Positions 1,915 through 16,721 of a DNA stretch of 23,753 nt are shown here, in pieces. The stretch spans positions 1-23,753 of IMG/VR virus record IMGVR_UViG_3300023174_008871; one strand, given 5' to 3'. The translations under genes were made by a program, and so were the position numbers. Source of the stretch: a virus. The notes below the pieces were generated by a model that ran no database searches, was not told the origin of the DNA, and was given only the letters and a program-made list of their open reading frames with translations. Each line of letters opens with the position of its first letter. The stretch's first letter is position 1.

Positions 1915-2400
1915 TTAGGCAATATATTTGCGAAGATTGTTGTTTCTGTTGGTCCAACCTTTGAGAAATTTCTTTAAACTAGCTTTATTGTAGGCCAAGT
2001 TCTCGTAAAAAGTTTGACGTTGATCAATAACTTTATTAGCCAATTTATATGAATCTGACCTCTGCACAGAAGCCAATGTTTTGGGTCCAATGATGCCATC
2101 TGGCTCTGTGCCTACTGCTCTTTGAAGAAATCTATTAGATTGCTTCTGGCCAGTGTTCACACAACAATCCAAATAAACACAATCTAGGGGCCATATAAAC
2201 TGCTCGCAATTGAATCTAACCCAATACTCAGTGAAGTATATGTCAGTTGCTTCATCAATGGTTAATTCCTTCATGTTAACATCTGGATGGCTTCTTTTGT
2301 CTATGCCATAATTTGTTTCGCCTCCTGGATCATCTGGATCATTGGTATATCCACCTTCTGCATCCAGTACAAACTTTATGGATTTCTGAAAATCGTTCAT
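1915..2400 (-). CDS. Endolysin, GH108-type N-acetylmuramidase with C-terminal peptidoglycan-binding region
   Basis: The 161-aa protein opens with the GH108 signature around residues 13-33: DAEGGYTNDPDDPGGETNYG, in which Glu15 of EGGY is the expected catalytic acid. The family cleaves the beta-1,4 bond between N-acetylmuramic acid and N-acetylglucosamine. Residues ~95-160 (GTEPDGIIGPKTL, then DQRQTFYENLA) match the PG_binding_3 type C-terminal domain usually paired with GH108. There is no signal peptide or SAR segment, so export should depend on a holin, for which 3626-3889 is the candidate. The length is typical of GH108 phage lysins. The start ATG overlaps the stop of the upstream small lipoprotein (ATGA), which fixes the start and implies translational coupling. 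Confidence 0.93.
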   Translation of the reverse strand: MNDFQKSIKFVLDAEGGYTNDPDDPGGETNYGIDKRSHPDVNMKELTIDEATDIYFTEYWVRFNCEQFIWPLDCVYLDCCVNTGQKQSNRFLQRAVGTEPDGIIGPKTLASVQRSDSYKLANKVIDQRQTFYENLAYNKASLKKFLKGWTNRNNNLRKYIA

Positions 2401-2558
2401 CTGTCAAAAGAATGTTCGTTGAATGTTTTGGTGCTAGCATCTTCTGCAGCCTGCATGGTTGGGACATCTGAGTATTTGCTTTTGTGTTGTTCAGATGATG
2501 AAACAGGCGCGCAGCTGACTAGCACTGTACTCATTAGCACTAGGACTATCAATCTCAT
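2397..2558 (-). CDS. Small lipoprotein, 53 aa, coupled to endolysin
   Basis: This short gene runs from ATG 2558 to TGA 2397-2399. It begins with a lipoprotein signal peptide: MRLIVLVLMSTVLVSC, lipobox LVSC with Cys16 as the lipidated residue. The mature part of about 38 residues is hydrophilic (APVSSSEQHKSKYSD and onward) with no other recognisable domain. It begins four bases after the stop of the preceding lipoprotein and its stop overlaps the endolysin ATG (ATGA). Small phage lipoproteins next to endolysins are often outer-membrane spanins (Rz1-like), so this is a candidate o-spanin. The role is inferred from position and lipobox only. Confidence 0.7.
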   Translation of the reverse strand: MRLIVLVLMSTVLVSCAPVSSSEQHKSKYSDVPTMQAAEDASTKTFNEHSFDR

Positions 2559-2562
2559 GCTA

Positions 2563-2982
2563 TTATTTAACTAAATCTTTGGCTTTATCCCAAATGGAAT
2601 CTGGCTCTTTGCCATCTTTGCGCCAACTGTTCAAAATAGCATAATATACCAGATGCTGCTGATCTATGATGTAAAGTTTGTTACCCTTCTTGTCTGTGAA
2701 CTCTTCTATTCCTGAATTGATGTCTAGGTCCACACCTTTAAAGGATTTAAATCTAATTTTGTATGTCTTGATGAGAGTATTGTAGCGCAACAAACCAAAT
2801 GGTGTTATAATACCCCTGCCATCATCAAGAAAGCCGATAAATCCAGAATTCTGTACATCATAACCAGTGGGTGTTGAGGCATCATAGGAGGCAATTTCAT
2901 CCTTAACTTTATCAGGTGTTACTGTAGTGCAGCTACAGAGCAATAAACTACTCAGCGAGAGAATCGCGAATCTTTTTAACAT
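2563..2982 (-). CDS. Lipoprotein, 139 aa, lysis cassette
   Basis: The N-terminus is a clear lipoprotein signal: positively charged MLKR, hydrophobic core FAILSLSSLLL, lipobox LCSC with Cys18. The mature domain (~120 aa) is mixed alpha/beta with no motif I recognise; it includes a Gly/Asp stretch (GFLDDGRGIITPFG) and a charged C-terminus. Its start lies inside the preceding 66-aa gene, giving a 35-nt out-of-frame overlap (2948-2982), an arrangement reminiscent of Rz/Rz1 spanin pairs. It is larger than a typical o-spanin. It may be an outer-membrane lipoprotein acting in envelope disruption or superinfection exclusion; this is inference. Confidence 0.75.
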   Translation of the reverse strand: MLKRFAILSLSSLLLCSCTTVTPDKVKDEIASYDASTPTGYDVQNSGFIGFLDDGRGIITPFGLLRYNTLIKTYKIRFKSFKGVDLDINSGIEEFTDKKGNKLYIIDQQHLVYYAILNSWRKDGKEPDSIWDKAKDLVK

Positions 2983-3148
2983 TTTTCTCCTTTACTGCTT
3001 TTTCAATTTCGTTTTCGTGGTCAGTTTCCTTTTGTTGAAGCTGGCGGTCTTTCATTTCCTTAGTATTCTTTGCACCAAATACATTATTGATAGCACCAAA
3101 TATTCCAGAAATGGCGCCTAATAATGCTTGTAAAATACCGCTTGGCAT
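2948..3148 (-). CDS. Small protein with hydrophobic N-terminus and charged helix; spanin- or antiholin-like candidate
   Basis: The 66-aa product has a hydrophobic, glycine-containing N-terminal stretch (residues 4-26: GILQALLGAISGIFGAINNV and onward) and then an almost entirely charged, helix-forming region (NTKEMKDRQLQQKETDHENE and onward, to residue 66). This one-membrane-segment plus coiled-coil layout resembles inner-membrane spanins (Rz-like), although the first segment is weakly hydrophobic and could be an amphipathic pinholin-type helix. The start overlaps the stop of the upstream lipoprotein (TAATG at 3148), and its 3' end contains the start of the next lipoprotein. I cannot decide between spanin and holin roles from sequence alone. 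Confidence 0.65.
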   Translation of the reverse strand: MPSGILQALLGAISGIFGAINNVFGAKNTKEMKDRQLQQKETDHENEIEKAVKEKNVKKIRDSLAE

Positions 3149-3633
3149 TAGTCTACGTACTCTTCAGTAGCTGTCTTACAGCCTTTAGCAATAGCGTTAA
3201 GTATATCGACTCCGAGCTTTGCATCACCATTGAGCTTAGTAAATTGTGTAGCGTAGATATCTTTAACAATAACTACATACTTAGCCCAGTGTGTCTTATC
3301 TTGAGGGAGATAATCAGTTAAAGCTTTTTGAAGTTGATCAGGTGTTGGTGTGGCGCCTGCTGTTAAACCTTCTACAATTACAGCTACATGATTAATCATC
3401 TTAGCTTTTTCAACTCTATCTTCAGGGTTAAGAGCCTGCTCAAGCACAACTGTACACGCTAGCGTTACAGCTGGCGCAATATAGGGAAGAGCATTTTCTA
3501 CTGCCTCTCTAGATGTAGTACCACCGGTATCCGAGCCTCCGTTGCCACCGTTATTTGTGGCACATGCAGTAAATAAAAGTGAAATAGCGAGAATGGGTAA
3601 AATATTTTTCATACAAATACTTAGCTTAACCAT
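3148..3633 (-). CDS. Lipoprotein, lysis cassette
   Basis: The product carries a lipoprotein signal peptide, MKNILPILAISLLFTAC, if translation starts at the ATG at 3612 (codon 8); the longer form from ATG 3633 adds seven residues (MVKLSIC). The shorter start gives the more canonical signal peptide; the longer one overlaps the holin stop by 8 nt. After the lipidated Cys comes a Gly/Asn/Thr-rich linker (ATNNGGNGGSDTGG) and a mostly helical domain of ~120 residues containing ALNPEDRVEKAKMINHVAVI and Cys residues near both ends. I do not recognise a family. Its place between the holin candidate and the spanin-like gene suggests an envelope role during lysis. Confidence 0.75.
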   Translation of the reverse strand: MVKLSICMKNILPILAISLLFTACATNNGGNGGSDTGGTTSREAVENALPYIAPAVTLACTVVLEQALNPEDRVEKAKMINHVAVIVEGLTAGATPTPDQLQKALTDYLPQDKTHWAKYVVIVKDIYATQFTKLNGDAKLGVDILNAIAKGCKTATEEYVD

Positions 3634-4576: not shown

Positions 4577-4983
4577 GGGGCTGTAATGGTATCGATTGAA
4601 CAGTGGAGTTCATGAGAGCAAGTACCGGGGCATGCCGGTTTACCAATAGCAATCATATTAAATGCCGAAGATAACTTCGACATGGCTATGAGTCTCGAAG
4701 AAGCTGATGCAATTCTTGCAGCAGCAGGCTTTGTAGATGCAGAAGCCGAACTCGAGCTAGTTTAAGCTCGATCGTTCTACTGTAGATTAAAGTTTGTAAA
4801 GTAGAGCGTGTTACTAACTTTCGTGTAGTTTGGGTTCTAACAATTAATAAATTACATGTACAAAATTGTTATGAGTAAGGGCTTTTTGTTTGGTTTAATC
4901 CTTATGAAATCTTAACTGAAATAAACTTGTAGTGCTTATGAATGAATCTATTCAAGACGAGAGTTCAATTCTCTCCAGCTCCA
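4577..4983 (+). ncRNA. ssrA: Transfer-messenger RNA (tmRNA), one-piece
   Basis: The 5' end GGGGCTGTAATGGTATCGA and the 3' end GAGAGTTCAATTCTCTCCAGCTCCA are the classic tmRNA termini (GGGGCTG pairs with CAGCTCC; A4983 is the discriminator; CCA is not encoded). At 407 nt it is a normal one-piece length. A PK1-like GC-rich fold lies at 4622-4644, and a 9-bp H5-like stem (CGTTCTACT / AGTAGAGCG) follows the tag. The tag frame that stays open runs from GCC at 4664 to TAA at 4763-4765, giving 33 residues: AEDNFDMAMSLEEADAILAA in the first part, ending ...AELELV. That is much longer than the usual ~10 and lacks a terminal LAA-type degron. It rescues stalled ribosomes together with SmpB, which would come from the host or elsewhere in the phage. 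Confidence 0.95.
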
Positions 4984-4988
4984 GGCTC

Positions 4989-5777
4989 TTAACCTATTAA
5001 AAATAAATTTTTAAGACTAGGGTTCATATACAACGCTGCAGTTGCTACGTTTGATACAGGGTGTATAAAATAATCGCATTTGCTAAGAGCAACCCCCTCT
5101 AAGTAATGGTTAATAGTGTCTTTTACATTTAAAACACTTCCATTGCGGTGCGATTCTAAATCATAAGCTGTCGCTGTCCTTGTAGTGTTTTTATTATAAA
5201 TGATATTATATTTATCTTTAAAATAATTTAAATCTTCATTATTATCAATAGCACAAACAACAACAAATTCTTTTAAGTTGAAACTATTAATAGCATCTAT
5301 ATATTGTTCTTTTGTAGGGGAAACACGGTTGGGTTGTTCTGTAGATAGATGATTGTTACGTATTAAAATACCTATTTTGGGTACATCTTTGTACATTTGA
5401 AATTGTTTTTGATATATTTCCTCAAATGTACTGTCAACAAGATCAGTATGTTTTATAAATTTTTTATAAGCTTTGTAATATGTATCTCTCCATTTTTGAT
5501 CAACACATGTATATTTGTCAGCTGCAAAATGTGCTGTAAAACTGACATCAATATATGCATCAACTATTTTTGTTTCTCGTGATGGAATATTGTTATTATA
5601 CTCTACGAATAACGGTCTAAAGTTATCGTCATTATTATAGCAAAATGCACTTACATCATGCATATTCCATTCTACTTGATTAATAATGTCATAATATTGT
5701 ACTAATCCCTGTATGGTTTGATTGAATTGGGAAAAAAAACCTCCAAAACAATTATGTGGTCTAAATATTATTTTCAT
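4989..5777 (-). CDS. Glycosyltransferase-like protein (fucosyltransferase-like, GT-B type)
   Basis: The 262-aa protein opens with KIIFRPHNCFGGFFSQFNQT, resembling the N-terminus of O-/alpha-1,6-fucosyltransferase-like phage proteins. In its second half it has GILIRNNHLSTEQPNRVSPT (an Arg-His sugar-nucleotide binding style segment, ~residues 137-157). A C-terminal block, HPVSNVATAALYMNPSL (~240-256), is a pattern seen in GDP-sugar-using GT-B enzymes, where it contacts the nucleotide. The family call is by resemblance and tentative. It is the last gene of the 15-gene glycan operon, and its ATG overlaps the stop of the short upstream gene (ATGA). It converges with the tmRNA, leaving only 5 nt between them. 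Confidence 0.7.
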   Translation of the reverse strand: MKIIFRPHNCFGGFFSQFNQTIQGLVQYYDIINQVEWNMHDVSAFCYNNDDNFRPLFVEYNNNIPSRETKIVDAYIDVSFTAHFAADKYTCVDQKWRDTYYKAYKKFIKHTDLVDSTFEEIYQKQFQMYKDVPKIGILIRNNHLSTEQPNRVSPTKEQYIDAINSFNLKEFVVVCAIDNNEDLNYFKDKYNIIYNKNTTRTATAYDLESHRNGSVLNVKDTINHYLEGVALSKCDYFIHPVSNVATAALYMNPSLKNLFLIG

Positions 5778-5983
5778 AAGTTAATATATTTAACGTATTT
5801 CAAGAAATTGCTACTTGCTTTTTCATACAATGCGTGTATATGACCATCTGTAAAAGGACAGTTATTAGTATAATAATAATCAACTTGATGCCCGTTTTGC
5901 CTGAATAAAATTGCTATTGTTTGAAGATATTTCTCTATACCCCCAGACACGAGACCGCAAAACTTGACAAATGCTATTCTCAT
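5774..5983 (-). CDS. Truncated glycosyltransferase (N-terminal GT-B fragment), 69 aa
   Basis: The start MRIAFVKFCGLVSGGIEKYL followed by QTIAILFRQNGHQVDYYYT is the N-terminal Rossmann strand, Gly-rich loop and first helix of a GT4-type glycosyltransferase, a family normally 300-400 residues long. Only about 50 residues of it remain; the product then ends in KYVKYINL and a stop. Everything needed for donor binding is missing, so it cannot be an active GT on its own. It nevertheless keeps ATGA overlaps with both neighbours, which suggests either a deletion remnant still carried in frame or a small partner subunit for the next gene. Confidence 0.6.
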   Translation of the reverse strand: MRIAFVKFCGLVSGGIEKYLQTIAILFRQNGHQVDYYYTNNCPFTDGHIHALYEKASSNFLKYVKYINL

Positions 5984-6774
5984 TGGTATACCTCTTTAAA
6001 AAGCTCTATATCCGCTTTTATTTTATCTAATGTTTGCTCTTCTTGATAATTACACTCTAATGCAATCCATTTGTTATAGTGAAATTTTTTAATCGTAGCG
6101 GCAATCTCCCTATTATTAATTGTTGCTATTGTCTTTAGCCCTGGTGCACTAATGTGTATGTGCTCAATTAAATCAAACCCTTTGTCAAAAATAGCCGCTA
6201 CACTTTCATTGTTTATTATAGTGGTACTAATATCTAAATTTATTTTAAAATTAGCGTGATTAACTTTCTTTACAAAATCTAGTGCATCATAGGTATTAAC
6301 CATAAAATTACAACCATATTGCCTAGGGTTTGGTTCAAAACAAACTATACAATTGTATTTTTTTGCAATATCGGACATTTCTTTAAAAATTGCTACTGCA
6401 TTATTATAATTAAAATTTGCTGTATTTTTAATAAATCTATTTTTAGGAGAACCAAATACTAATATACCAACACCTAGTTTATTTGCTAAACTAAAGCACT
6501 TATCTAGCTTTTTAAAAATAATTGCTTTTTCCTTATTACCGTCAAATATAGAAACCGGCGGGCAAGAAAAAAGCAAAGATTGCATGCCAATAATTTTTAA
6601 TTTTGCCTCTGTAACTTCTTTTATTACTTTTTTGACATCAATAGAATTAATTTCACCAATAAGTGTTGGTGCTATATCAAGCCCGCAAATATTTAAGTCG
6701 CGCAAGTAATCATATATTTGAGCGTTACATTCCGTCTTCCACCCAATATTACTTACCGATAGATTCGTATTCAT
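5980..6774 (-). CDS. Sugar phosphate isomerase/epimerase-like TIM-barrel enzyme
   Basis: The 264-aa protein matches the xylose-isomerase-like TIM-barrel (AP_endonuc_2) superfamily. Barrel strands carry probable metal ligands: Glu147 in VCFEPNP, Asp181 in INLDIS, His207 in HIHISAPG and Glu240 in IALECNY. Enzymes of this type isomerise or epimerise sugars or related hydroxy-keto compounds using a divalent metal. It starts inside the 3' end of the SDR gene (26-nt overlap) and ends with an ATGA overlap. Together with the adjacent SDR and FAD oxidoreductase it probably makes or modifies a sugar used by the neighbouring transferases. The substrate is unknown. Confidence 0.82.
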   Translation of the reverse strand: MNTNLSVSNIGWKTECNAQIYDYLRDLNICGLDIAPTLIGEINSIDVKKVIKEVTEAKLKIIGMQSLLFSCPPVSIFDGNKEKAIIFKKLDKCFSLANKLGVGILVFGSPKNRFIKNTANFNYNNAVAIFKEMSDIAKKYNCIVCFEPNPRQYGCNFMVNTYDALDFVKKVNHANFKINLDISTTIINNESVAAIFDKGFDLIEHIHISAPGLKTIATINNREIAATIKKFHYNKWIALECNYQEEQTLDKIKADIELFKEVYQ

Positions 6775-7510
6775 GTTTAAACTCCTTTAAATCATTTAAA
6801 ATCTGTTCTTTTGTATAAAAATATTTCCTTCCTGGTAAATGCTTTGTTTGCATATCATATTCAAAATTTGTTTTAATATTATTATTCAGGGTAATATTAA
6901 ATACGTCCTTATAGATGTCGTCAACCAATAAAGGCTCTGTTGCAAGATTAACAATACGTAAATTACTTTTTAAAAAATAATTTAAATCTGAACCTAAGCG
7001 CTTCACATTATAAATTTGAACTTTTGCTGTCTTGTTCACTTTGTGTAGCTCATGCTTGTTGAGCCCATCATAAATTACATTTTTTTTGAAGCCGTGGCCA
7101 TACATTATAGGTAATCTTACAATAAGATAGTTTGGGAATAATGTTTTTACTTGCTCTTCTAGCAAGTATCTATTTCGACCATAGCGGTTTGCATTATCAC
7201 GAGAACCAGGTACATCTTCATTTACATTACTTGGAGGTTGGTATACATCGATCGTAGATATTAACACAAACATATTAGCTTTTATAGTTTTAATATTTTC
7301 AATAAACAAAAGTATATTTGCATAGTCTTTTTCAGGATCTTGATTCACAAGCCATCTAGAAGAGGAATTTCCGCATGATACAACCAAGTCAAATTCCTTG
7401 AATTTAATATTATCAATATTTTTTGAATTATAAAAGTCAGTAAATTTTAACTGTTTATCAAGAGCCTGGCCTATAAACCCTGTATGACCAATTAAAGCAT
7501 TATTACTCAC
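6749..7510 (-). CDS. NAD-dependent epimerase/dehydratase (extended SDR family)
   Basis: The start chosen is GTG 7510, which has a well-spaced SD-like AAAGAGG upstream and gives MSNNALIGHTGFIG; a TTG at 7528 is possible but sits in that SD. The GxxGFxG dinucleotide motif is at residues 8-14. A Ser/Thr strand (LISTIDVY) and the active-site region follow. The latter reads YGRNRYLLE, so the catalytic Tyr-x-x-x-Lys has Arg in place of Lys. It is ~253 aa, shorter than typical nucleotide-sugar epimerases (310-340). The 5' end overlaps the FAD oxidoreductase stop and the 3' end overlaps the isomerase start. It likely acts on a nucleotide sugar in this pathway. Confidence 0.8.
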   Translation of the reverse strand: MSNNALIGHTGFIGQALDKQLKFTDFYNSKNIDNIKFKEFDLVVSCGNSSSRWLVNQDPEKDYANILLFIENIKTIKANMFVLISTIDVYQPPSNVNEDVPGSRDNANRYGRNRYLLEEQVKTLFPNYLIVRLPIMYGHGFKKNVIYDGLNKHELHKVNKTAKVQIYNVKRLGSDLNYFLKSNLRIVNLATEPLLVDDIYKDVFNITLNNNIKTNFEYDMQTKHLPGRKYFYTKEQILNDLKEFKHEYESIGK

Positions 7511-8585
7511 CACACAACCTCTTTGCAAATATAGCTGCTATGTATGGGGCGGAAATTAATTTACCCTCACGAACCGTGAAGAAGTCTATCTTATAGTGTT
7601 GCTTTATTATTCTTGTAGCTCTAGAATCACCCCGTGCACTAGAAGGTATAGGTCTATTAGCATATAGTGAATATTTGTATTTTAAATTATTAAAAAAAGG
7701 ATAATACTGTAATCCGTGTTTTAACATTTGCTTCCAATTACTTTTATATTTTTTACTCCTTGTAAAAATTGTACCTGTAGTTCTTCTGACAACAGAATTT
7801 TTTACATCATAAACAAGATAATGACGATCATGTCCTGCATGAGGTAGTATAGAGATATACGGGCCATCCATAACAGTAAGAGCAGGTATCTCGACATTTG
7901 ATTTGACAACAGCAACTTCAGTCTCTTCAAAAATATACTTTGTTAATCTGTCTTTAATATGAAAGAGCTTAAGAATATTATTAGCGTTTGTATATGTACA
8001 GTTAATAATTTTATCTACACTAAGTAATTTCTTATCATTTTCGCTGTTAAGTAGTAGCATACCGTTAACCCACTTTACGTTTTCAATTTTAAAGTTTAAT
8101 AGCAGTGCAATATTACGATCGTAAAGTTCTTTTATAATTTTTTTTCTAAATTTATTAATATCTATGCAGGCCTCTCTAACTTTAAAAGAGTCATCTATTT
8201 TTGCTCTATTTAAAAACATTTCTTTTGGCCAAGAGCTCCTACACTCAAGTTTTTCAGCTTTCATAATAGATTTAAATTTTCTTGAGGACGTCTTTGACTT
8301 TTTGCAGATTACATAAAAAAAATCTGGAAATACTAAGCAATCTTTATAATTTTTTGTAAAATACTCATAACCTAATTTACACTCTTGTATAGTATCTCTT
8401 GACCTAGGATAATGATAGCCGAGGTGAATTCTGTTGTGGTTATTTTTTGATGTTTCCCAGAGAATTTCTTTATTCGCGTCAACTATTGTAACATTATATT
8501 TTTTAGACAATTCAAGCGCAATAGTAATACCGTGTATACCTGCGCCTATGATGAGAACGTTTTTTTTTAAGGGCAACATATTCAA
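7503..8585 (-). CDS. FAD-dependent oxidoreductase (DAO family)
   Basis: The 360-aa protein has an N-terminal Rossmann fold with VLIIGAGIHGITIALELS (GxGxxG at residues 14-19) and the acidic residue ending strand 2 in VTIVDA, which binds FAD ribose. A conserved block, HNRIHLGYHYPRS (~49-61), and a long substrate domain follow, and the C-terminal FAD segment contains REGKLISAPY. This is the D-amino-acid-oxidase-like family, oxidising amine or hydroxyl groups. Members occur in surface-glycan clusters next to SDR and isomerase genes, as here. It overlaps the upstream GT10 gene by four bases (ATGA). The substrate is unknown. Confidence 0.8.
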   Translation of the reverse strand: MNMLPLKKNVLIIGAGIHGITIALELSKKYNVTIVDANKEILWETSKNNHNRIHLGYHYPRSRDTIQECKLGYEYFTKNYKDCLVFPDFFYVICKKSKTSSRKFKSIMKAEKLECRSSWPKEMFLNRAKIDDSFKVREACIDINKFRKKIIKELYDRNIALLLNFKIENVKWVNGMLLLNSENDKKLLSVDKIINCTYTNANNILKLFHIKDRLTKYIFEETEVAVVKSNVEIPALTVMDGPYISILPHAGHDRHYLVYDVKNSVVRRTTGTIFTRSKKYKSNWKQMLKHGLQYYPFFNNLKYKYSLYANRPIPSSARGDSRATRIIKQHYKIDFFTVREGKLISAPYIAAIFAKRLCGE

Positions 8586-9427
8586 AGTATTTTTTTAAAA
8601 AAATCTGTTAATGGATCAAGTGACGGTTCTCTACCCTCAAAAAGATAATTGTTTTTCATAGCTTTATATGCTCCTTCATTTGTATCTAGCTCAATGATTT
8701 TCTCAATATATTCATCAATATTTTTAAAATTGTAGAAATTTAAAAAAGAGTTTGGGTTAAAGTCTTTTTCACATTCATTATCAGCCCAGTATAATGGCAG
8801 ACAGCCTGCAGCTTTTGCATGTAATATTCTATTTGTATAATAACCAGGGTGAATTCGATTTTCAAAACAAAGTTCAAATTTATAATCCGATGTTGTTTTG
8901 AGCTTTACATCTTCACCATAAAACCAGTTACTAAAAGGCTTACCATAACAGTCTACTTTTTTATATTTGCTTAGCTTATCAACTATTTCAAATCTATGCG
9001 GTGAATCTGTGTTAAAGACAAATGTGCAGAATTTTTCCTTTGGCTTGTGCATCAATAAATTATCTTTCATTGCGCGTAGGGGTACTACAAAGCGAGGATT
9101 TCCATAATTTTTCTTATTAAACCAATCAATATTGATAAACCATAGCGGTAAACGAAAATTTCTATCATTATAACTATCAAAATCAAACGTTAGAGAGTAA
9201 TCACATTCGCTAAAATTGGGACGTAAATTTTCGCCTGTGTAGTAGATTTTTTTTGTTTTAGACCGGTTTATATAATGATGTTGTTGTCCGAAACAGGAAT
9301 ATATTAATACGTCTGGTTGATTATCAAAAGATACCACCTCTATTTCAGTAAAAGTAGATAGTAGATCAGAAAAAAAATTATTTTTTGAATCAAATTGATC
9401 CCAAAAATCAGCAAAGGCTATCTTCAT
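8582..9427 (-). CDS. GT10 family alpha-1,3/4-fucosyltransferase
   Basis: The 281-aa protein has the GT10 hallmarks. YYTGENLRPN (residues 62-71) sits in the acceptor half. In the donor half, YKFELCFENRIHPGYYTNRI (~182-201) is followed by AKAAGCLPLYWAD, matching the bacterial GDP-fucose-binding motif (as in Helicobacter FucT). The family transfers fucose from GDP-fucose to an acceptor sugar, often GlcNAc. There is no signal peptide or TM segment. Neighbours are a FkbM methyltransferase upstream and the FAD oxidoreductase downstream, each with an ATGA overlap. No GDP-fucose synthesis genes (gmd, fcl) are visible here, so the donor would come from the host or elsewhere. Confidence 0.88.
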   Translation of the reverse strand: MKIAFADFWDQFDSKNNFFSDLLSTFTEIEVVSFDNQPDVLIYSCFGQQHHYINRSKTKKIYYTGENLRPNFSECDYSLTFDFDSYNDRNFRLPLWFINIDWFNKKNYGNPRFVVPLRAMKDNLLMHKPKEKFCTFVFNTDSPHRFEIVDKLSKYKKVDCYGKPFSNWFYGEDVKLKTTSDYKFELCFENRIHPGYYTNRILHAKAAGCLPLYWADNECEKDFNPNSFLNFYNFKNIDEYIEKIIELDTNEGAYKAMKNNYLFEGREPSLDPLTDFFKKIL

Positions 9428-10071
9428 TGTGGTAATGGCAAGTTCTTGTTTAAATATATTACATTGCCGCTTTTTGATTGTTGATCCAACTCTTCTGACT
9501 TACATTCAAAACTGTTATCGAGTAAAAATTCCTTAAACTGTGGATACAAAATATTTCCCTCATATTGTTCAGATAAATTGACTTCCGAAAATAATACTCT
9601 AGTAGACTTTAATGTAATTGGTGCCGCCATTAGCACTACAGGCTCATAGCCCTGTAGGTCCAGCTCCAAACAGTCAATATATGCAATATTTTTTTTCTTA
9701 ACAAAATCATCTAGATTTAAAGTTTTTGCTGTAATAACTTCTTTAAACGTTAGATCAGGATGACTGTGTAGTAGATCTTTTGGTTTCAAGAGCGAGGATG
9801 CACCCCAGGGTTCTCCAAATCTATCGCTTACATAGAAATCAAGAATCTCATCAGACTTAGCACCGAGTGCATTTCCATAGAGTTCGACATTATGTCGCTG
9901 AAAAAGCTGTAAGTTGTTATTTGTAATATGGTATTGTCTGGCGTTAGGCTCGAAAGCATAAATTTTACCTTGTGGATATAAACCGCTATACTCGATTAAA
10001 TCCTCACCATTACCCGTACCAGCTTCAATAATAGTTGGAGTTTGTCTTGTAATGTATGGGGCTATATTCAT
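9424..10071 (-). CDS. FkbM-family SAM-dependent methyltransferase
   Basis: The 215-aa product carries the FkbM pattern: SAM motif IIEAGTGNGED (residues 14-24), FEPN (40-43), a LNLDDF segment near residue 118, and LELDLQGYE around 136-144. This family methylates hydroxyl groups, typically on sugars of glycans. It is a class I methyltransferase, cytosolic, close to the normal domain length. It sits 23 nt after the GT25 gene and overlaps the GT10 start by four bases, so it probably methylates the glycan built by these enzymes. Confidence 0.87.
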   Translation of the reverse strand: MNIAPYITRQTPTIIEAGTGNGEDLIEYSGLYPQGKIYAFEPNARQYHITNNNLQLFQRHNVELYGNALGAKSDEILDFYVSDRFGEPWGASSLLKPKDLLHSHPDLTFKEVITAKTLNLDDFVKKKNIAYIDCLELDLQGYEPVVLMAAPITLKSTRVLFSEVNLSEQYEGNILYPQFKEFLLDNSFECKSEELDQQSKSGNVIYLNKNLPLPQ

Positions 10072-10094
10072 GCTTATATTTTAATGTCGAGCTG

Positions 10095-10748
10095 CTAGTA
10101 AGCCACAGTCACATGTGGTTGAACACTCGATAAAAACCGTTGTCTTAATATAGGATTATTACTCTGTGTTGTTTGCTCTAGACCTTTAAGAAGGTAATAA
10201 GACTTTAAGCCTAAATCTGTAACAACATCATTTAACTTATGATCATAGCCTTTTAACGGGCTAACTAGCTTAGGTATAATTTTTTCTGCACATTCTTTGG
10301 TATAAAGAATTGCGTGACCACATCTTGTTGTGTAATTTGGTTCCCAGTGCATTATTTCATCTTTCAGTGCACCGGGTACACCAATATTACAGCAATCACC
10401 CAGCATCAAGAGATCCCCTTTATTGGAGATAAACGTATTCAGAATGAGAGGAAAATCATTTACAAATTCATCTGTCAAGACAACATCATCTTCAAACACA
10501 ATAAAATAAGAGTAATTATTTTCTACGCCTTGCTCTAAGGCAGATTTAAATTTTAAAAACAAAGAATATTCGTTTTTATTTATTCGTTTTTCTACCGGGT
10601 CAATTGTAAGTGTTTCAGGCGGAAAAGTCTCAACCCATACAGGGTTGATAAAGTATTTTCCTAACTGGTTAAGCATATACGCTTTTCTCTCTGTAAGTTT
10701 GTTGTGATGTACAACAAATACAGGTATGGTAATATTACCCGCCGACAT
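10095..10748 (-). CDS. GT25 family glycosyltransferase (LPS-type)
   Basis: The 217-aa protein begins ITIPVFVVHHNKLTERK, the strand-and-Arg start of GT25 enzymes, and carries the acidic metal/nucleotide motif FEDDVVL (residues 85-91), followed by a Gly-rich acceptor region (GDCCNIGVPG) and CGHAILYTKECA. GT25 includes LPS galactosyltransferases such as LgtB and Lex2B. Its start overlaps the upstream GT gene by 14 nt. A shift in host LPS or a virion glycan are both possible targets. Confidence 0.85.
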   Translation of the reverse strand: MSAGNITIPVFVVHHNKLTERKAYMLNQLGKYFINPVWVETFPPETLTIDPVEKRINKNEYSLFLKFKSALEQGVENNYSYFIVFEDDVVLTDEFVNDFPLILNTFISNKGDLLMLGDCCNIGVPGALKDEIMHWEPNYTTRCGHAILYTKECAEKIIPKLVSPLKGYDHKLNDVVTDLGLKSYYLLKGLEQTTQSNNPILRQRFLSSVQPHVTVAY

Positions 10749-11556
10749 ATTCTAGCCATTCTCTAAATAACCAATTAGACCCATCAGAGAAATCCCCACC
10801 AGTAAAATGTCTCAACCGTACCTTATCTTTTGTAGTTGAAATTATATCGTACATATTCTTTTTACCGTTCTCACTAGTTTCTTCTAAGAGTTGTGTCACA
10901 TTCCATTCAACAGGTAGAATTTCTATATTTTCAATAAGTTCTGAGAGCTCGAAGAATGTATGCTCGTTTTTATTACTATGAAAACCATAATTAGGCAATT
11001 CAGTAAATGGTACCCAACTATGCGCTTTAATACCAGCCGCATGATAAAAAGCGTCTTGATCATGATCACACATAGGTGCATGTGTATTAAAGTTTTCTCT
11101 ATATACATTAAAATTGCGAAGCCTGTCAAACCGCTCTTGATCGAGAATTACTCTTATTAATTTTTTTGTAAAGTCATTAACTTTGAGTGAAAATACTCCC
11201 GTATTGTGTGAGTTACCCGAGTCGATCGCATATGTAAAGCTTTTATTTGTTTGTAAAGGTTGATCGAGCTTTGCAACGAACACATCACAGTCTATATATG
11301 AGATTATATCCCCATCATTTACAATACCTTGATCAATAGCAAGCTTACATAGCCACCATCTTGCAAAGCGCTTATCATCTCGCGGATTAAAGGGATGGAC
11401 TATAACAGGTGGCAGTGCTAGCCTATCTGGCGTCGCTTCAATTAATTTAAACCCATGCATATCACAATATTTTTTTATTCTCGGAGAATTATACTTTAAG
11501 TATAACTCCTGTCTTGTACCAGGGTAATTAGGAATAGTAATAAAAAACTTTTTCAT
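10735..11556 (-). CDS. GT-A fold glycosyltransferase (GT34/GT8-like)
   Basis: The 273-aa protein contains a DxD motif, YIDCDVFV (Asp89-Cys-Asp91), preceded by a KR(F)ARWWLCKLAIDQG helix typical of galactosyl- or mannosyl-transferases of the GMA12/MNN10 type (GT34) and GT8 relatives. The C-terminal part has PVEWNVTQLL and RLRHFTGG, where the late His commonly completes the metal site. It precedes and overlaps the GT25 gene, with a 20-nt gap after the exostosin-like gene. The family is assigned by motif layout, so the exact donor sugar is unknown. Confidence 0.75.
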   Translation of the reverse strand: MKKFFITIPNYPGTRQELYLKYNSPRIKKYCDMHGFKLIEATPDRLALPPVIVHPFNPRDDKRFARWWLCKLAIDQGIVNDGDIISYIDCDVFVAKLDQPLQTNKSFTYAIDSGNSHNTGVFSLKVNDFTKKLIRVILDQERFDRLRNFNVYRENFNTHAPMCDHDQDAFYHAAGIKAHSWVPFTELPNYGFHSNKNEHTFFELSELIENIEILPVEWNVTQLLEETSENGKKNMYDIISTTKDKVRLRHFTGGDFSDGSNWLFREWLEYVGG

Positions 11557-11576
11557 TGCATTATTATATTGTAGTG

Positions 11577-12365
11577 TTAACTGTTTTCAAGGAGTTCATT
11601 TATTTGCCTAATATAGTACTGCAGGTCGCTTAATATAGTAGCTCGCTGCATTAATAATTCATATTTTTCGTCAATTAAATCACGACTTAATTGCCCCCAG
11701 TCGTCCAAAAACAGTATTGGTTCGCTTTTAAAATAGTGTAGCGGAATACTTTTTAAACATATGGGTATTGTTTTAAGATACATACTTTCCCATATTCTAT
11801 GACAATCAACACTATTGCCTGGCGGTGATATAATGTATTTGTATGTACTGACTTTTCTTAAATAACTTTCATAGTCATGCTTAACAAAATCAAAATCTAT
11901 AAACGGTAATTGACGTAGTTTTTTCATTGCATTGTATCTTTGTTCGGGATTTGTATTTGGATCAAAGTTACAATAAACTAAATTTGTCTTTTGATTATTT
12001 TCGTTAATAATCTTTACCATTGTTTGCTTATTACCGTGTGGCCAAACCTCGTTCGCCATACCTATTGGCATGGCTTGTAATTTAGGATGCAACGAGTGCA
12101 CATTCATTCCAAACCATTTTATTAAAAAGGGATTTTCTAAAATATTAGTATTACCAGGAATTGAAAAATCTGAATCATGTGTTAAAAGTATAAATTTATA
12201 ATTAATTTTTGGCAAAATTGCGGTTGCAAACTCATTTATATAATCGGTTTTTATGAAAAAAATATTATTTTTTGGTGAAAGGTCAATCTTTACACCGTGT
12301 CTTGAAATAAAGTTTTTTGCTAATTCTAACACCCTGTCTGGTGTTATAATGAATTTATCATTCAT
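11577..12365 (-). CDS. Exostosin/GT47-like glycosyltransferase
   Basis: The 262-aa protein ends with a GT-B donor-site pattern: YKYIISPPGNSVDCHRIWES (residues ~176-193) followed by MYLKTIPI. This is the 'P-G-N-x-D-x-x-R-x-W-E-x-x-x-x-G/K-x-x-P' signature of exostosin-like enzymes (GT47, RXYLT1-like). The N-terminal half is divergent. It overlaps the upstream transferase by four bases (ATGA at 12362-12365). Such proteins recur in marine phage glycan clusters, and the substrate is unknown. Confidence 0.72.
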   Translation of the reverse strand: MNDKFIITPDRVLELAKNFISRHGVKIDLSPKNNIFFIKTDYINEFATAILPKINYKFILLTHDSDFSIPGNTNILENPFLIKWFGMNVHSLHPKLQAMPIGMANEVWPHGNKQTMVKIINENNQKTNLVYCNFDPNTNPEQRYNAMKKLRQLPFIDFDFVKHDYESYLRKVSTYKYIISPPGNSVDCHRIWESMYLKTIPICLKSIPLHYFKSEPILFLDDWGQLSRDLIDEKYELLMQRATILSDLQYYIRQINELLENS

Positions 12366-13285
12366 AAAAAGGCCGGGATAGCTTTTTTATTTTGTAAATG
12401 CAAATTAAAAAGCGGTAATTTACCGTGTTCGTAGATAATAAACGGCTTATCTTTGAACACCACTTCAATTGTCTTTTGTTCAAGATGTTGACCCGCGTAG
12501 TGCAGTGGATTAATATAGCCTCTTTCATGTCCGTTGTTTGTACCGCCAAGATACTGACCGTATGAAGTAGGGTCAAATAACATATTGAGCTTGTCTACAT
12601 TTTCTCCTTGATCACCAAAAGGTAGACACGGAAGCATTTTATAGTTTTTATTATATTGATATATAAGATATAGAAAATTCATATCAGTAATGTACTGATA
12701 GGGTATATTAAGTATTTTTCTTATTTCTTCCTCGCCTTTGCGTAATAGTTTAAAATGTAGATTTAATAGGTTTTGTGCTGAGTCTCTATCTCTAAGAAAA
12801 ATTATTGCTGGGGCTGAATCAAGAATTTTTTCATTACTAAAACCAAATTCACCCGATTCAAACACCTTTAAAAAAGGCGTAATATCATTAGAAAAGATTA
12901 GATTATCTGCCTCGACATGAAATGTATTCTTTAGACCGTATTCATACACAAAGATGCAATAATATATTACACGTAAGAAAGCATGATATAAAAAAACATC
13001 TTGTCTGTAGCGAGACCATTTTTCATCAAACATTTTTATAAACTGTCTATACAAAGGTGAGGCGTGAAGACTTTCTATAGTCACTATTTCTACATCGTTA
13101 AATAAAGCTTTAGCCGCGCTATATTGAGATTTAGTTGTTAAAAAAAATGCTCTATTAAAATTTTTTTTATTAAAATTTAATGTTTTGATATAATATTCGG
13201 GGATTGTATTATATGTAAAAGGGTATTCACCTTCACCGATCGTGAATGCACTATCAATAAAAACATATACAATATTATCTAGCAT
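12362..13285 (-). CDS. Putative GT-A glycosyltransferase, 307 aa
   Basis: The protein has a motif, FHVEADNLIF (residues 122-131), resembling the DxD region of GT-A enzymes (Glu-x-Asp), preceded by the helix RYRQDVFLYHAFLRVIYYCI. The N-terminus (IVYVFIDSAF) looks like the first Rossmann strand. The C-terminal region includes a Gly/Asn-rich segment (GQYLGGTNNGHERGYINPLH) and LFNLHLQNKK. The late Asn/His in the latter may complete the active site. No named family is recognised with certainty. Its start codon shares one base with the stop of the upstream gene (13285). Confidence 0.65.
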   Translation of the reverse strand: MLDNIVYVFIDSAFTIGEGEYPFTYNTIPEYYIKTLNFNKKNFNRAFFLTTKSQYSAAKALFNDVEIVTIESLHASPLYRQFIKMFDEKWSRYRQDVFLYHAFLRVIYYCIFVYEYGLKNTFHVEADNLIFSNDITPFLKVFESGEFGFSNEKILDSAPAIIFLRDRDSAQNLLNLHFKLLRKGEEEIRKILNIPYQYITDMNFLYLIYQYNKNYKMLPCLPFGDQGENVDKLNMLFDPTSYGQYLGGTNNGHERGYINPLHYAGQHLEQKTIEVVFKDKPFIIYEHGKLPLFNLHLQNKKAIPAFL

Positions 13286-14031
13286 TATGCGAGCCCTCTA
13301 TGATGAAAAAATATTTGAGGATACAGATATTTTTCACTCTTTACATAATTACCCCATTCAGATGGTTCTCTAGCTAGGGTTAAGTTATACTTAATAGCCA
13401 GCAGCGAAAGAATAGATTGATCGTGTCTGTGATCGCGAAAACCCGGAAAGTTATCCCCGTATTTGTTCGCTATATCTGTAATAACATGTTCATCTTGACA
13501 ATAATTTAAATATTCTTCAAAAAACGATACTGCAAAATTATTTTTTTTAACTAAGATATATGACGCATCAATTTGATTGCCGTGGGTGTATTTTTCATCA
13601 AGACAATCCATTAGTTTGAAACAATCATATTTTGTAAACATGTAGTTTTGCCAAATACCGCCTTTTACCTCCTTATCGTTATGTGTACCATCTCTATTTT
13701 CAAAAAGTAATACACCTGACTGCTCTTTATCTACCAAATCAAACAATGGCTGTGGATTATCAATAACAGTATTACCACTATCAACATAAAATACGTAATC
13801 ACCATCCTTAACCAAATTGAGTGCATCTCTAATAATATAACCCTTCCATAACCAATACCCGCCGCCACGCTCTTGCGTTAAGATATGTTTATTTTTTTCA
13901 TAAAACTCTTTGCCTATCATACCAGGGTGATATGAAATATGACCATTAAAATATTGTTTTGCAGAATTAACTAATTGTTGCTGCGATCTGTAATAATAAG
14001 GTTTATTGGCGTAGCTTATAATAATTTTCAC
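13285..14031 (-). CDS. Putative GT-A glycosyltransferase, 248 aa
   Basis: The start is GTG 14031. Residues 55-67 read RGGGYWLWKGYII, and residues 81-86 contain FYVDSG, the equivalent of the DxD motif in a family of bacterial and phage GT-A transferases. DHRHDQSILSLLAIKYN and a C-terminal FFHHRG follow, which supply further metal and donor contacts. This pattern is seen in capsule or LPS glycosyltransferases of unknown specificity. It lies 39 nt after the preceding gene, the largest gap in the operon, with no clear SD. Confidence 0.72.
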   Translation of the reverse strand: MKIIISYANKPYYYRSQQQLVNSAKQYFNGHISYHPGMIGKEFYEKNKHILTQERGGGYWLWKGYIIRDALNLVKDGDYVFYVDSGNTVIDNPQPLFDLVDKEQSGVLLFENRDGTHNDKEVKGGIWQNYMFTKYDCFKLMDCLDEKYTHGNQIDASYILVKKNNFAVSFFEEYLNYCQDEHVITDIANKYGDNFPGFRDHRHDQSILSLLAIKYNLTLAREPSEWGNYVKSEKYLYPQIFFHHRGLA

Positions 14032-14070
14032 ACTATTTTATTGTATAAAGAGTCAACTAGAATTCAATAG

Positions 14071-14922
14071 TTAATTAAAGCTTTTGTAATTTTGTTTAAA
14101 CCATTCGTCATTGAAATACTGTTGCTCTAGCTCAAGCTCGTTCTTGTGAGGTGTACAGTAGTTTACACCCGGTCGTCTTAGTAGCACTGTAAACAAATAG
14201 TTATGCCACATATCTACATCAAACTTAGAAGGCTTCCAATATAGTGAAAAATTATGATCTCTTTCTGCAGAATCTTGATGAGAGTCGTCACCGTGTATAA
14301 TATGAAACGTTGGGGCGGGCCATTTATTGCATAGTGTAGAGTTACCATGACGCATGCATAATGTTGCGTAGTGCACATCCCAACACGGATGACCTAGGAT
14401 ATAAGGAGAAAATTTATCTTTGTTTTGCTGCCACCATTTACTTCGAATACAAAAAGTATCAAAGCCGGCCACTTGAAAGTGTTCGTTATAAATTGAATCC
14501 GAGAGTGTATTTATATTTTTTATTGCAAGTCTTGAAGCAGGGTAACAATCGTAATCGGTAGACAAAATAAATTTTATGTATCTATCGGAAATAATAATAT
14601 CGTCATTAGTAAAAATAAAATAATCATAATTATCTAGTTCAGATAATTTTGTGAAAAGCTCATTCATTATAGGTAAGGTTTTTTTCGAAGGACGTTTAAT
14701 ATAATTTTTACTACTATCCTTCAAAACTCTGAGTGTAGGTATATCTGCATGATATCTTCCTTTTATTTGTTCATCTACAAACTGTACATTATAAAGATCT
14801 ATATTAGGATATTTTTGTCTAATCTTTAGAAAAGATTCTATAGCCAGCTCAGTTCTCTTGTTCTCACCGAACAAATTAACCGCAAAAGCAATCTTTTTAT
14901 CTGACGATGTAGTAGCTGACAT
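14071..14922 (-). CDS. Putative glycosyltransferase, 283 aa
   Basis: The 283-aa protein starts with a strand-helix unit, KIAFAVNLFGENKRTELAIE, and has the acidic motif YFIFTNDDIII (residues 101-111), a GT2/GT-A-type nucleotide and metal site. Later, HPCWDVHYATLCM and WPAPTFHIIHGDDSHQ provide His/Asp residues expected near an active site. I cannot name the family. Its 5' end overlaps the GMP reductase stop by 26 nt, so the two are translated from one message. It has no membrane segment. Confidence 0.62.
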   Translation of the reverse strand: MSATTSSDKKIAFAVNLFGENKRTELAIESFLKIRQKYPNIDLYNVQFVDEQIKGRYHADIPTLRVLKDSSKNYIKRPSKKTLPIMNELFTKLSELDNYDYFIFTNDDIIISDRYIKFILSTDYDCYPASRLAIKNINTLSDSIYNEHFQVAGFDTFCIRSKWWQQNKDKFSPYILGHPCWDVHYATLCMRHGNSTLCNKWPAPTFHIIHGDDSHQDSAERDHNFSLYWKPSKFDVDMWHNYLFTVLLRRPGVNYCTPHKNELELEQQYFNDEWFKQNYKSFN

Positions 14923-15874
14923 TTTTTAATGAGCTTAATGATGCCCCTCCACTATAGCTGACAGCTGAAGATAGATCTTGCTTAATCTCTTCTAATTTGT
15001 CAAGATATGTAATATTGTTTTCTCTTATTTTTCTCAAAGTTCCCTCAATATGTGTTTTATGTTGTTTATTATGTTCAGATGCAGACCCAAAATATAGTTT
15101 ATACTTTACACCGTCCTCATCAGTTACAACTTCAGAAGGACTATCACAGCATTCTGCAAATAGTGAACCGCACATTACCATATCAGCTCCAGCAACTATA
15201 GCTTTTGCAATATCACCATTCGATTTAATCCCGCCATCGGCTATAATAGGCACATCAACATTACAAGCCTCTTTAATAGCCCTAACACAGGTAAACATGG
15301 GTATCGTAAAGCCTGTCTTGTCTTTTGTTGTGCAAGCATTGCCCTGTCCAATACCAACTTTGACTGCATCTGCACCGGCGTTTACTAGATCAGTCACTCC
15401 TTCTGAGGTCGCAACATTACCTGCAATTAAAAATGTACCGGGTAAATTATCCTTAATGTATTTTATCATATCTATAGCTACCAATGAATGCCCGTGCGCG
15501 ATATCCAAGGTTATATATTCCGGGGTAAAAATAGTTTTTAAACTTGATACTAATTCTCTATCCTCTTTCTTCACACCTACACTCATTGAAATGTACGCTA
15601 GGTCTTTTCTATTACCTTCCACAGAAGCCCAATTTACAAGAGCTGTATTAGTATTATCAAATCTGTGCATCACATAAAAATAACCACTATTAGATAGTTT
15701 TTTTGCTAACTCCCAGTCAATAGTACATTTCATATTTGCAGGTATTACTGGAAGCTTAAAACGACGTTTTCCTAGAAGAACACTAGTATCCGCATCACGA
15801 CGCGTTGTTAAAACCCCGCGCTTAGGTGCAAGAGCAACGTCTGAATATCTGTATGCGTGTTTACTATTTTGCAT
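14897..15874 (-). CDS. guaC: GMP reductase (GuaC, YumD-like type)
   Basis: The 325-aa protein is a complete IMPDH/GMPR TIM barrel without CBS domains. LDIAHGHS lies at 123-130. The catalytic loop VGIGQGNACTTKDKTG (173-188) has Cys181 as the nucleophile and the Thr-Thr-Lys/Arg-x-Lys-Thr-Gly sequence that distinguishes GMPR from IMPDH. IADGGIKSNGD (211-221) and MCGSLFA bind phosphate. YFGSASEHNK plus a C-terminal QDLSSAVSYSGG match the Bacillus GuaC form. It reduces GMP to IMP with NADPH, releasing ammonia. Its place inside a glycosyltransferase operon, overlapping genes on both sides, is unusual; it may recycle purines from host RNA or adjust guanine nucleotide pools. Confidence 0.92.
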   Translation of the reverse strand: MQNSKHAYRYSDVALAPKRGVLTTRRDADTSVLLGKRRFKLPVIPANMKCTIDWELAKKLSNSGYFYVMHRFDNTNTALVNWASVEGNRKDLAYISMSVGVKKEDRELVSSLKTIFTPEYITLDIAHGHSLVAIDMIKYIKDNLPGTFLIAGNVATSEGVTDLVNAGADAVKVGIGQGNACTTKDKTGFTIPMFTCVRAIKEACNVDVPIIADGGIKSNGDIAKAIVAGADMVMCGSLFAECCDSPSEVVTDEDGVKYKLYFGSASEHNKQHKTHIEGTLRKIRENNITYLDKLEEIKQDLSSAVSYSGGASLSSLKNVSYYIVR

Positions 15875-16667
15875 ATTTTTTGTAAATAGTTTTCATTATT
15901 TTTTTTACGTCTTCGGAGGATGTATCCGGTACCCTGTTTTCCCAGGCTGGTGCATAACCATGTTTATTAACAAAAAGTTGCGCACCCTTTTTAATATTTT
16001 CCATCCAATCCTGCCGTGGACGAATTGCACTACTAGCTTCCGAGCATTCTATTTCATCTAAATAATCAGTGCTGTTTGCTATATCAGGAAAATTCCAATA
16101 CGGGGTACAATAGCCTGCTTTAGCAATACGATAATCGTGATCAACATGTTCAAATGCATTTGTATAATTTTCATCAATTAACCCTACTTTTTCGAGAACT
16201 TCTTTTGTATAATAACAGAAAGCACCTACGCTATGTGTGTTAATAGCAATTTTTATTCCGGGATATTCAACAACAAATTTAGGTACCGGTCTACCTCCTG
16301 ATATACCGTCTTTATTGGCCGGCCCGTGGTAACCAAAGTTAAAGTGCTGGATACCGGTGATGTTTCTCGCTCTTATATATTCATTAAAGACTTCTTGTTT
16401 TTTTACTATAATATCGTCTTCAATAGTAAAGATGTCTGTACAGCCTTTATTAAGTAAATGTTTAAAAATCTTATTTTTAGATTTACCTACCCCTACATTT
16501 TGTTTATTATGAATATAGGTAAACTCTCTTTCTTTAGTTAATTTTTCCCAATCTTCAAAATTAGACCCGTCGTTAACTACAACAAGCTCAACGTCTTTAG
16601 GTATAGATCTAAAACATTTAAGAAAGAAACTAGGCCTATTACATGTAACAATTCCAGCGCCAATCAC
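15864..16667 (-). CDS. GT2-like glycosyltransferase, first gene of glycan operon
   Basis: The 267-aa protein begins (GTG 16667) IGAGIVTCNRP and contains ELVVVNDGS (residues 27-35) and IEDDIIV (82-88), the nucleotide-binding and DxD-type motifs of family 2 GT-A enzymes. FEHVDHDYRIAKAGY (~177-191) supplies the later acidic/catalytic region. It has no TM segment, so it acts in the cytosol. As the first gene of the 15-gene minus-strand block, it lies 60 nt from the divergent tail-adhesin gene. Its stop overlaps the GMP reductase start by 11 nt. Confidence 0.85.
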   Translation of the reverse strand: MIGAGIVTCNRPSFFLKCFRSIPKDVELVVVNDGSNFEDWEKLTKEREFTYIHNKQNVGVGKSKNKIFKHLLNKGCTDIFTIEDDIIVKKQEVFNEYIRARNITGIQHFNFGYHGPANKDGISGGRPVPKFVVEYPGIKIAINTHSVGAFCYYTKEVLEKVGLIDENYTNAFEHVDHDYRIAKAGYCTPYWNFPDIANSTDYLDEIECSEASSAIRPRQDWMENIKKGAQLFVNKHGYAPAWENRVPDTSSEDVKKIMKTIYKKYAK

Positions 16668-16713
16668 TTAATTATTATAGTAATAATATACGTATTGCAA
16701 CTGGTGGGTCAGT

Positions 16714-16721
16714 AATAAATA
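16714..16721 (+). promoter_or_regulatory. Late-promoter-like box before the tail adhesin gene
   Basis: AATAAATA, one base different from TATAAATA, ends 6 nt before the ATG at 16728. If it acts as a late promoter, transcription would start at about 16727, one base before the start codon, leaving no leader. Confidence is limited because AT-rich DNA often contains such a string. Confidence 0.35.

Follow-up and report, generated by a model that had tools for sequence, protein, structure and literature searches.

A hypervariable glycan-assembly island beside a fibre gene in T4-like aquatic phages

Positions 4989 to 16667 of the IMG/VR virus record IMGVR_UViG_3300023174_008871, which is listed as linear and was analysed over its full 23,753 b (hereafter the window), form a hypervariable glycan-assembly island, in which a single glycosyltransferase (GT) gene of family GT2, located beside a fibre gene, is constant among relatives and one enzyme falls, judging by homology and key residues, into family GT114. 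Our tentative reading, held with somewhat less than even confidence, is that the island builds an oligosaccharide that would be initiated by this GT2 enzyme and most likely sit on a virion protein. Sugar-gene clusters have been carried unexplained by T4-like aquatic phages since P-SSM2. The phage group described here represents a natural experiment, with one constant transferase by the fibre gene and exchangeable genes behind it, and the GT114 family common to chloroviruses and the island provides a defined biochemical starting point.

The island, its borders, and its constant GT2 gene

The block is tiled by 15 minus-strand open reading frames (ORFs; numbered B01 to B15 from the right end), which mostly overlap, with overlaps or gaps of about 40 b at most. 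This bears out a preliminary description, made from the letters of the same DNA, of a 15-gene, minus-strand, largely overlapping block. Its G+C content is 32.3 %, as compared to 40.4 % on its left and 38.8 % on its right. In the window, the island is bordered on the left by a transfer-messenger RNA (tmRNA) gene (4577-4984, plus strand; RF00023, 86.1 bits), which was overlooked by ARAGORN and detected by Rfam, and at the other end by the gene of a fibre protein (C01; 16728-17576, plus strand; PF21722, E 1.2e-10; phrog_863, tail fiber). The tmRNA gene is also the left border in close relatives (tmRNA was found in loci L163, L174, L176, L181, and L182), and in another group of relatives the island leads into a structural module of the same orientation, which holds gp23. 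The window is a fragment without gp23, and its T4-like status is taken from large relatives, 16 of 22 of which have this gene; on this basis, the phage carrying the block is T4-like. It is part of a freshwater or marine group. As the identity of its PhoH to those of cultured phages is at most 39 %, the group is only distantly related to them.

Searches with PhoH and GMP reductase yielded about 60 syntenic loci, and the islands of 22 relatives were compared. Their 263 island proteins fall into 110 clusters by single linkage, many of them singletons, and, where the far border could be read, the islands comprise 4-18 genes over 3-14 kb, one relative holding a four-gene island; the island of another reaches 17 kb, with a 2,179-amino-acid (aa) fibre gene inside. 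When gene order was followed through the relatives, as the preliminary description had proposed, B01 and B03-B06 were seen to recur in order in several of them, whereas B08-B15 have, for the most part, hardly any counterparts outside the window. Further sugar genes in the relatives include GT2, GT11, GT25, and GT4 enzymes, epimerases, GDP-mannose dehydratase, RmlD, UDP-galactopyranose mutase, and FkbM; the Pfam families of the relatives' islands were tallied with one representative per cluster, and the 25 commonest were listed. The one specific pathway envisaged in the preliminary description overlooks this hypervariability as well as a GMP reductase gene inside the block, which had gone unmentioned.

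Two observations on individual relatives may be added. Inspection by eye of the island at L163:6554-16789 revealed two genes of 2,179 aa (fibre-like) and 417 aa and, in an 813-aa protein, motifs resembling those of subtilases (GHGTHCTG). The distant islands at L169:17318-18042 and L173:876-1641 share a gene pair, one product of which is small and has a hydrophobic segment; the other, likewise small, is possibly the DUF4254-like member of the Pfam tally.

The only constant gene of the island is B01 (15864-16667, minus strand), which encodes a GT2 glycosyltransferase (PF00535, E 1.2e-8; phrog_2456, E 1.8e-27) and recurs in all large relatives (22 of 22) at 40-77 % identity. The adjoining fibre protein has a conserved N-terminus and a variable, glycine-rich C-terminus, and in 40 of the 45 loci listed the GT2 gene has a divergent neighbour with a shared N-terminus, about 190-340 aa long and with a variable, sometimes glycine-rich C-terminus. 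Similarity among the GT2 enzymes correlates with that among the fibre proteins in partial Mantel tests controlled for PhoH, QueE, and a kinase, both for the N-terminus (r 0.52) and for the C-terminus (r 0.34; p 0.0005 each), and the corresponding test of GT2 versus kinase gave r 0.10 (p 0.06). This co-variation may count as support for a virion acceptor, not as proof of it. Two GT2 anchor genes stand in tandem in L115, L098, L099, L121, L122, L124, L125, and L127, and relatives of this type, where listed, have a distinct fibre N-terminus.

Two promoter-type motifs, both located by motif search, lie between the GT2 and fibre genes, namely a box of the early/middle type, TTGCAATA-N13-TATAAT, upstream of the GT2 gene (16671-16700, minus strand), and, for the divergent fibre gene, a late promoter element of the T4 type, AATAAATA (16714-16721, plus strand). 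The more general pattern TTGCAATA-N12..15-TAWAAT precedes GT2 in the window and in close relatives; 19 of its 23 matches in 2.56 Mb stand in front of GT2, several of them in near-identical loci so that the independent cases are fewer, and shuffled sequence gave 1 match. The late element NATAAATA was found at most 65 nt from the fibre gene C01 in 12 of 12 and from C02 in 42 of 44 non-redundant loci, and upstream of GT2 in 0 of 43 as against 2.6 expected. Among the genes of the relatives, it accompanies 6 of 158 in the island versus 52 of 172 on the structural side. We infer an early or middle promoter from the box upstream of GT2.

The GT114 enzyme and the signs of a soluble pathway

The product of B06 (11577-12365, minus strand), labelled A075L/RXYLT1-like in the family scan, is a homologue of A075L of the chlorovirus PBCV-1. 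That xylosyltransferase decorates the major capsid protein, transferring xylose from UDP-Xyl to O4 of a fucose in its core N-glycan. Its single sequence retrieves A075L in a phmmer search (E 8e-27, residues 57-249), and the profile of its family retrieves three A075L entries of the PDB (E 5e-53, profile positions 3-258). In A075L, the founder of CAZy family GT114, Asp73 serves as the base, and Arg158 and Arg208 bind phosphate (PMC11571054). These residues align with D66, R143, and R190 of the island enzyme, all three of which are invariant across 10 phage sequences. With both the homology to A075L and the key residues of CAZy GT114 in place, it is, by these sequence marks, a GT114 enzyme, which is a new placement. 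The gene had been described as exostosin-like; an assignment to GT47 was dropped in favour of GT114 after the PDB profile searches.

The preliminary description had also noted the lack of a carrier-lipid transferase, Wzx, Wzy, and membrane segments. Within the block, this agrees with our results, as family scans of the block proteins gave no match to the undecaprenyl-phosphate sugar transferase family PF02397, and no stretch in any of these proteins looks like a membrane segment, the best Kyte-Doolittle mean over 19 residues staying below 1.6. It extends to the relatives for PF02397 (0 of 26 related contigs of up to 230 kb, with bacterial controls positive in 9 of 14) and for the Wzx flippase family PF01943 (0 of 22 related contigs, with bacterial controls positive), while Wzy is argued against solely by the lack of membrane segments, no search with its own family having been made. 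Given these three absences, a lipid-carrier route appears unlikely. Clusters for Wzx/Wzy-dependent O-antigen or capsule and the gtrABC genes of serotype conversion resemble the island in their content of glycosyltransferase and sugar-modifying genes; unlike them, the island has no PF02397 transferase, no PF01943 flippase, and no membrane protein, on which grounds a Wzx/Wzy or gtr-type pathway was rejected. Stepwise transfer by soluble enzymes to a cytosolic acceptor would be the simplest reading, and the gene content of the window and its relatives supports the soluble oligosaccharide pathway suggested in the preliminary description.

Candidate acceptors and related systems

In the reading that we prefer, soluble transferases made by the phage would draw on host nucleotide sugars and assemble a short branched oligosaccharide, sugar by sugar, on an acceptor accessible from the cytosol; a lipid carrier, flippase, or polymerase would not be involved, and an oxidoreductase, a short-chain dehydrogenase/reductase (SDR), an isomerase, and a methyltransferase would form a small tailoring set. 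The island would be turned on early or in the middle of infection from its own promoter ahead of the constant GT2 gene, whose product would initiate the chain on a conserved acceptor made by the phage; the outer structure would depend on the replaceable genes that follow. The likeliest acceptor would be a virion protein, with the adjoining fibre protein as the first candidate, and it is favoured because of the constant pair of GT2 and fibre genes, the kinship of the GT114 enzyme, and precedents from mycobacteriophages and chloroviruses; the placement of the island, in one group of relatives, alongside the gp23 module points the same way. Of the three acceptors named in the preliminary description, virion protein and the host lipopolysaccharide (LPS) core both stand as candidates, the virion fibre being slightly preferred, whereas phage DNA is poorly supported and unlikely.

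The precedents differ in how close they come. Capsid glycosylation in PBCV-1 likewise relies on virus-encoded, mostly soluble transferases and a methyltransferase (PMC9614988), but PBCV-1 is a virus of eukaryotic algae with dispersed genes and a proven acceptor, whereas the acceptors named for the island are candidates. Virion glycosylation by phage-encoded enzymes has been described for mycobacteriophages (PMC12363180, PMC11600133), of which Che8, Corndog, and Myrna share with the island phage-encoded glycosyltransferases, in some cases with an adjoining methyltransferase. Their systems comprise few glycosyltransferases and belong to another phage class, and the 29 % identity between B01 and gp234 of Myrna is a lead rather than a sign of membership. 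Phage-encoded soluble glycosyltransferases, one of the features of a virion-glycosylation system, are found in the block. That it works as modular virion glycosylation of the chlorovirus kind, in which a conserved initiating GT2 enzyme and exchangeable cytosolic transferases including the GT114 enzyme would place a strain-specific branched oligosaccharide on the fibre, nevertheless strikes us as rather unlikely.

Several findings weigh against a virion acceptor. The co-variation of GT2 and fibre may be explained by physical linkage alone, and the similarity to Myrna gp234 is distant. GT114-like genes occur in bacteria, too, and the homology of the island enzyme thus suggests the type of reaction only and does not point to the acceptor. 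A promoter of the early/middle type is unexpected for a purely late, virion-directed system, and GT25 and GT10, together with the heptose genes of related phage clusters, are typical of LPS core synthesis.

These points lead to a second explanation, doubtful in our estimate and yet a serious contender, according to which the enzymes would work at the cytoplasmic side of the inner membrane, where they would extend or cap the LPS or lipooligosaccharide core of the host, and a host exporter would carry the product outward, thereby blocking superinfection or the re-adsorption of progeny. Host-surface remodelling of this kind would agree with the early/middle-type promoter before GT2 in the window and relatives, with the scarcity of the late element among island genes as compared to the structural side, and with the LPS-type GT25 and GT10 enzymes; core sugars require no flippase, and the turnover of the island would suit changing host surfaces. 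Heptose genes and epimerases are present in the analogous clusters of P-TIM68 and S-SKS1, and published interpretations assign a host-surface role to the 24 LPS genes of P-SSM2 (PMC2984593) and to the cluster of S-SCSM1 (PMC9602691). For P-SSM2, too, the change of the host surface was proposed and not proven (PMC2984593). A constant GT2 gene tied to a fibre gene, however, is not predicted by surface remodelling, the window holds no heptose, 3-deoxy-D-manno-octulosonic acid, or lipid A gene, and the island of one relative consists of just four genes.

Glycan or LPS clusters such as those of the T4-like cyanophages P-SSM2, S-SKS1, P-TIM68, and S-SCSM1 are already known, and the island resembles them as a long contiguous run of glycosyltransferase, epimerase, and fucosyltransferase genes; homologues of B04 and B10 lie inside the P-TIM68 and S-SKS1 clusters, respectively. 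The features of such a cluster, namely a T4-like genome (here via the relatives) and a contiguous run of glycosyltransferase and sugar-modifying genes, are both present. Unlike the cyanophage clusters, the island has few genes for nucleotide-sugar synthesis and includes a GT114 enzyme, a GMP reductase, and a constant GT2 gene facing a fibre gene. Within the reach of the searches made here, four features are new: a GT114 gene in an island of this type, the constant pairing of GT2 with a fibre gene, the contrast between promoter types, and the border formed by a tmRNA gene.

It is improbable, in our view, that the block is mixed or decaying cargo at an acquisition hotspot, where sugar genes would be gained and lost without a common product. 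A truncated GT4 gene, the GMP reductase gene inside the block, fast turnover, low G+C content, and the tmRNA border would fit such an origin, but 14 of the 15 ORFs look intact and are packed tightly on one strand, the GT114 enzyme has retained its catalytic residues, and the anchor GT2 gene is found in every large relative. Transfer of the glycan to modified bases of the phage DNA, finally, is very improbable: marginal matches of the GT2 enzyme to TAGT (PF20691, E 0.08) and phrog_842 (E 4.7e-4) and the presence of QueE, QueD, and QueC in the phage group, which makes base modification likely, are set against several points. TET/JBP (PF12851) matched in 0 of 22 relatives, with the control silent too, and tRNA-guanine transglycosylase (PF01702) had no match in 27 contigs, although phage DpdA may have diverged too far for this family. 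The 7-deazaguanine genes, the only DNA-modification genes seen, lie outside the island and have no known glycosylation step, and a set of about eight different glycosyltransferases, including a fucosyltransferase and GT114, would be unusual for DNA.

Further genes of the block and its surroundings

The preliminary description had counted about ten glycosyltransferases. After correction, about eight intact ones are left, six of them backed by family or fold. Assignments to GT2, GT10, FkbM, DAO, SDR, and TIM-barrel families made there all stand in the family scans, and the remaining labels fared unevenly. Among the unnamed enzymes of the GT-A fold, two find support in predicted structures from AlphaFold2 (AF2). 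The model of B03 (14071-14922, minus strand; GT2-like, NDD motif), with a predicted local distance difference test score (pLDDT) of 88, has Foldseek matches to TarP and SpsA (E 5e-7 to 2e-5), and that of B05 (12362-13285, minus strand; GT8-like, EADN motif; pLDDT 92) to XXYLT1 and glycogenin (E 2e-7 to 2e-6). B04 (13285-14031, minus strand) is a probable GT-A glycosyltransferase by its DxD-like motifs (VDSGN) and its phage homologues only, one of them in the P-TIM68 sugar cluster, and Pfam-type family searches gave no match. Likewise probable is a GT34/GT8-like glycosyltransferase with a DCD motif at 10735-11556 (B07, minus strand), the GT34 label coming from a single relative (PF05637, E 4e-4). 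Profiles of B04 and B07 retrieved nothing usable from the PDB, and profile comparison of B04, B05, and B07 was weak. The GT25 label of B08 (10095-10748, minus strand; relatives at 28-36 %) has a match to PF01755 (E 2.7e-4) that lies below the Pfam cut-off, and we call this enzyme GT25-like.

The fucosyltransferase-like GT10 enzyme (B10; 8582-9427, minus strand) scores above cut-off for PF18025 and PF00852 and matches FucT of Helicobacter pylori (E 2e-29). At positions 249-250 of FucT, which we take to be donor contacts, Glu and Lys are replaced by Asn and Arg, and the donor may therefore not be GDP-fucose. Next to it lies the gene of an FkbM methyltransferase (B09; 9424-10071, minus strand; TIGR01444 above cut-off; PF05050). 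The DAO-type flavin adenine dinucleotide-dependent oxidoreductase (B11; 7503-8585, minus strand; PF01266, E 2.5e-16) had no close relatives among IMG/VR or public phages. In the SDR, an NAD-dependent epimerase-like protein (B12; 6749-7528, minus strand; PF01370, E 1.7e-4, just above cut-off), the GHTGFIG motif is retained and the YxxxK site reads YGRNR, so that its activity may depart from that of a normal epimerase. The xylose-isomerase-like TIM barrel (B13; 5980-6774, minus strand; PF01261, E 4.5e-16), a putative sugar isomerase/epimerase, matches D-psicose/D-tagatose 3-epimerases (E 4e-4).

The non-glycan content of the block includes the GMP reductase of purine metabolism (B02; 14897-15874, minus strand), which scores 356.6 bits on NF003966 (cut-off 344) and 328 on TIGR01306, under the 465.65 cut-off of that model, and shares 45-47 % identity with phage homologues; its relatives sit elsewhere in some related genomes, for example, L006 and L164. 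The 69-aa GT4 remnant (B14; 5774-5983, minus strand) corresponds to the N-terminus, at 58 % identity, of an intact 365-aa GT4-like protein in L181, and the last gene of the block (B15; 4989-5777, minus strand) has no Pfam or PHROG match above noise.

Outside the sugar genes, the tag frame of the tmRNA reads AEDNFDMAMSLEEADAILAAAGFVDAEAELELV, which lacks the LAA that usually ends such tags and, at 33 aa, compares with a commonest tag length of 10 aa (PMC11915505). The frame is retained, with many synonymous changes, in 23 other loci, some of them on the same contigs, and the tag possibly does not mark proteins for degradation. The QueE and QueD genes lie at 21191-21937 and 22733-23380, and QueC is present in 18 of 22 large relatives; the phage group probably makes the 7-deazaguanine precursor, perhaps for its own DNA. 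At 1915-3633, a GH108 endolysin gene and two lipoprotein-like small genes form a probable lysis region, the two small genes possibly encoding spanins.

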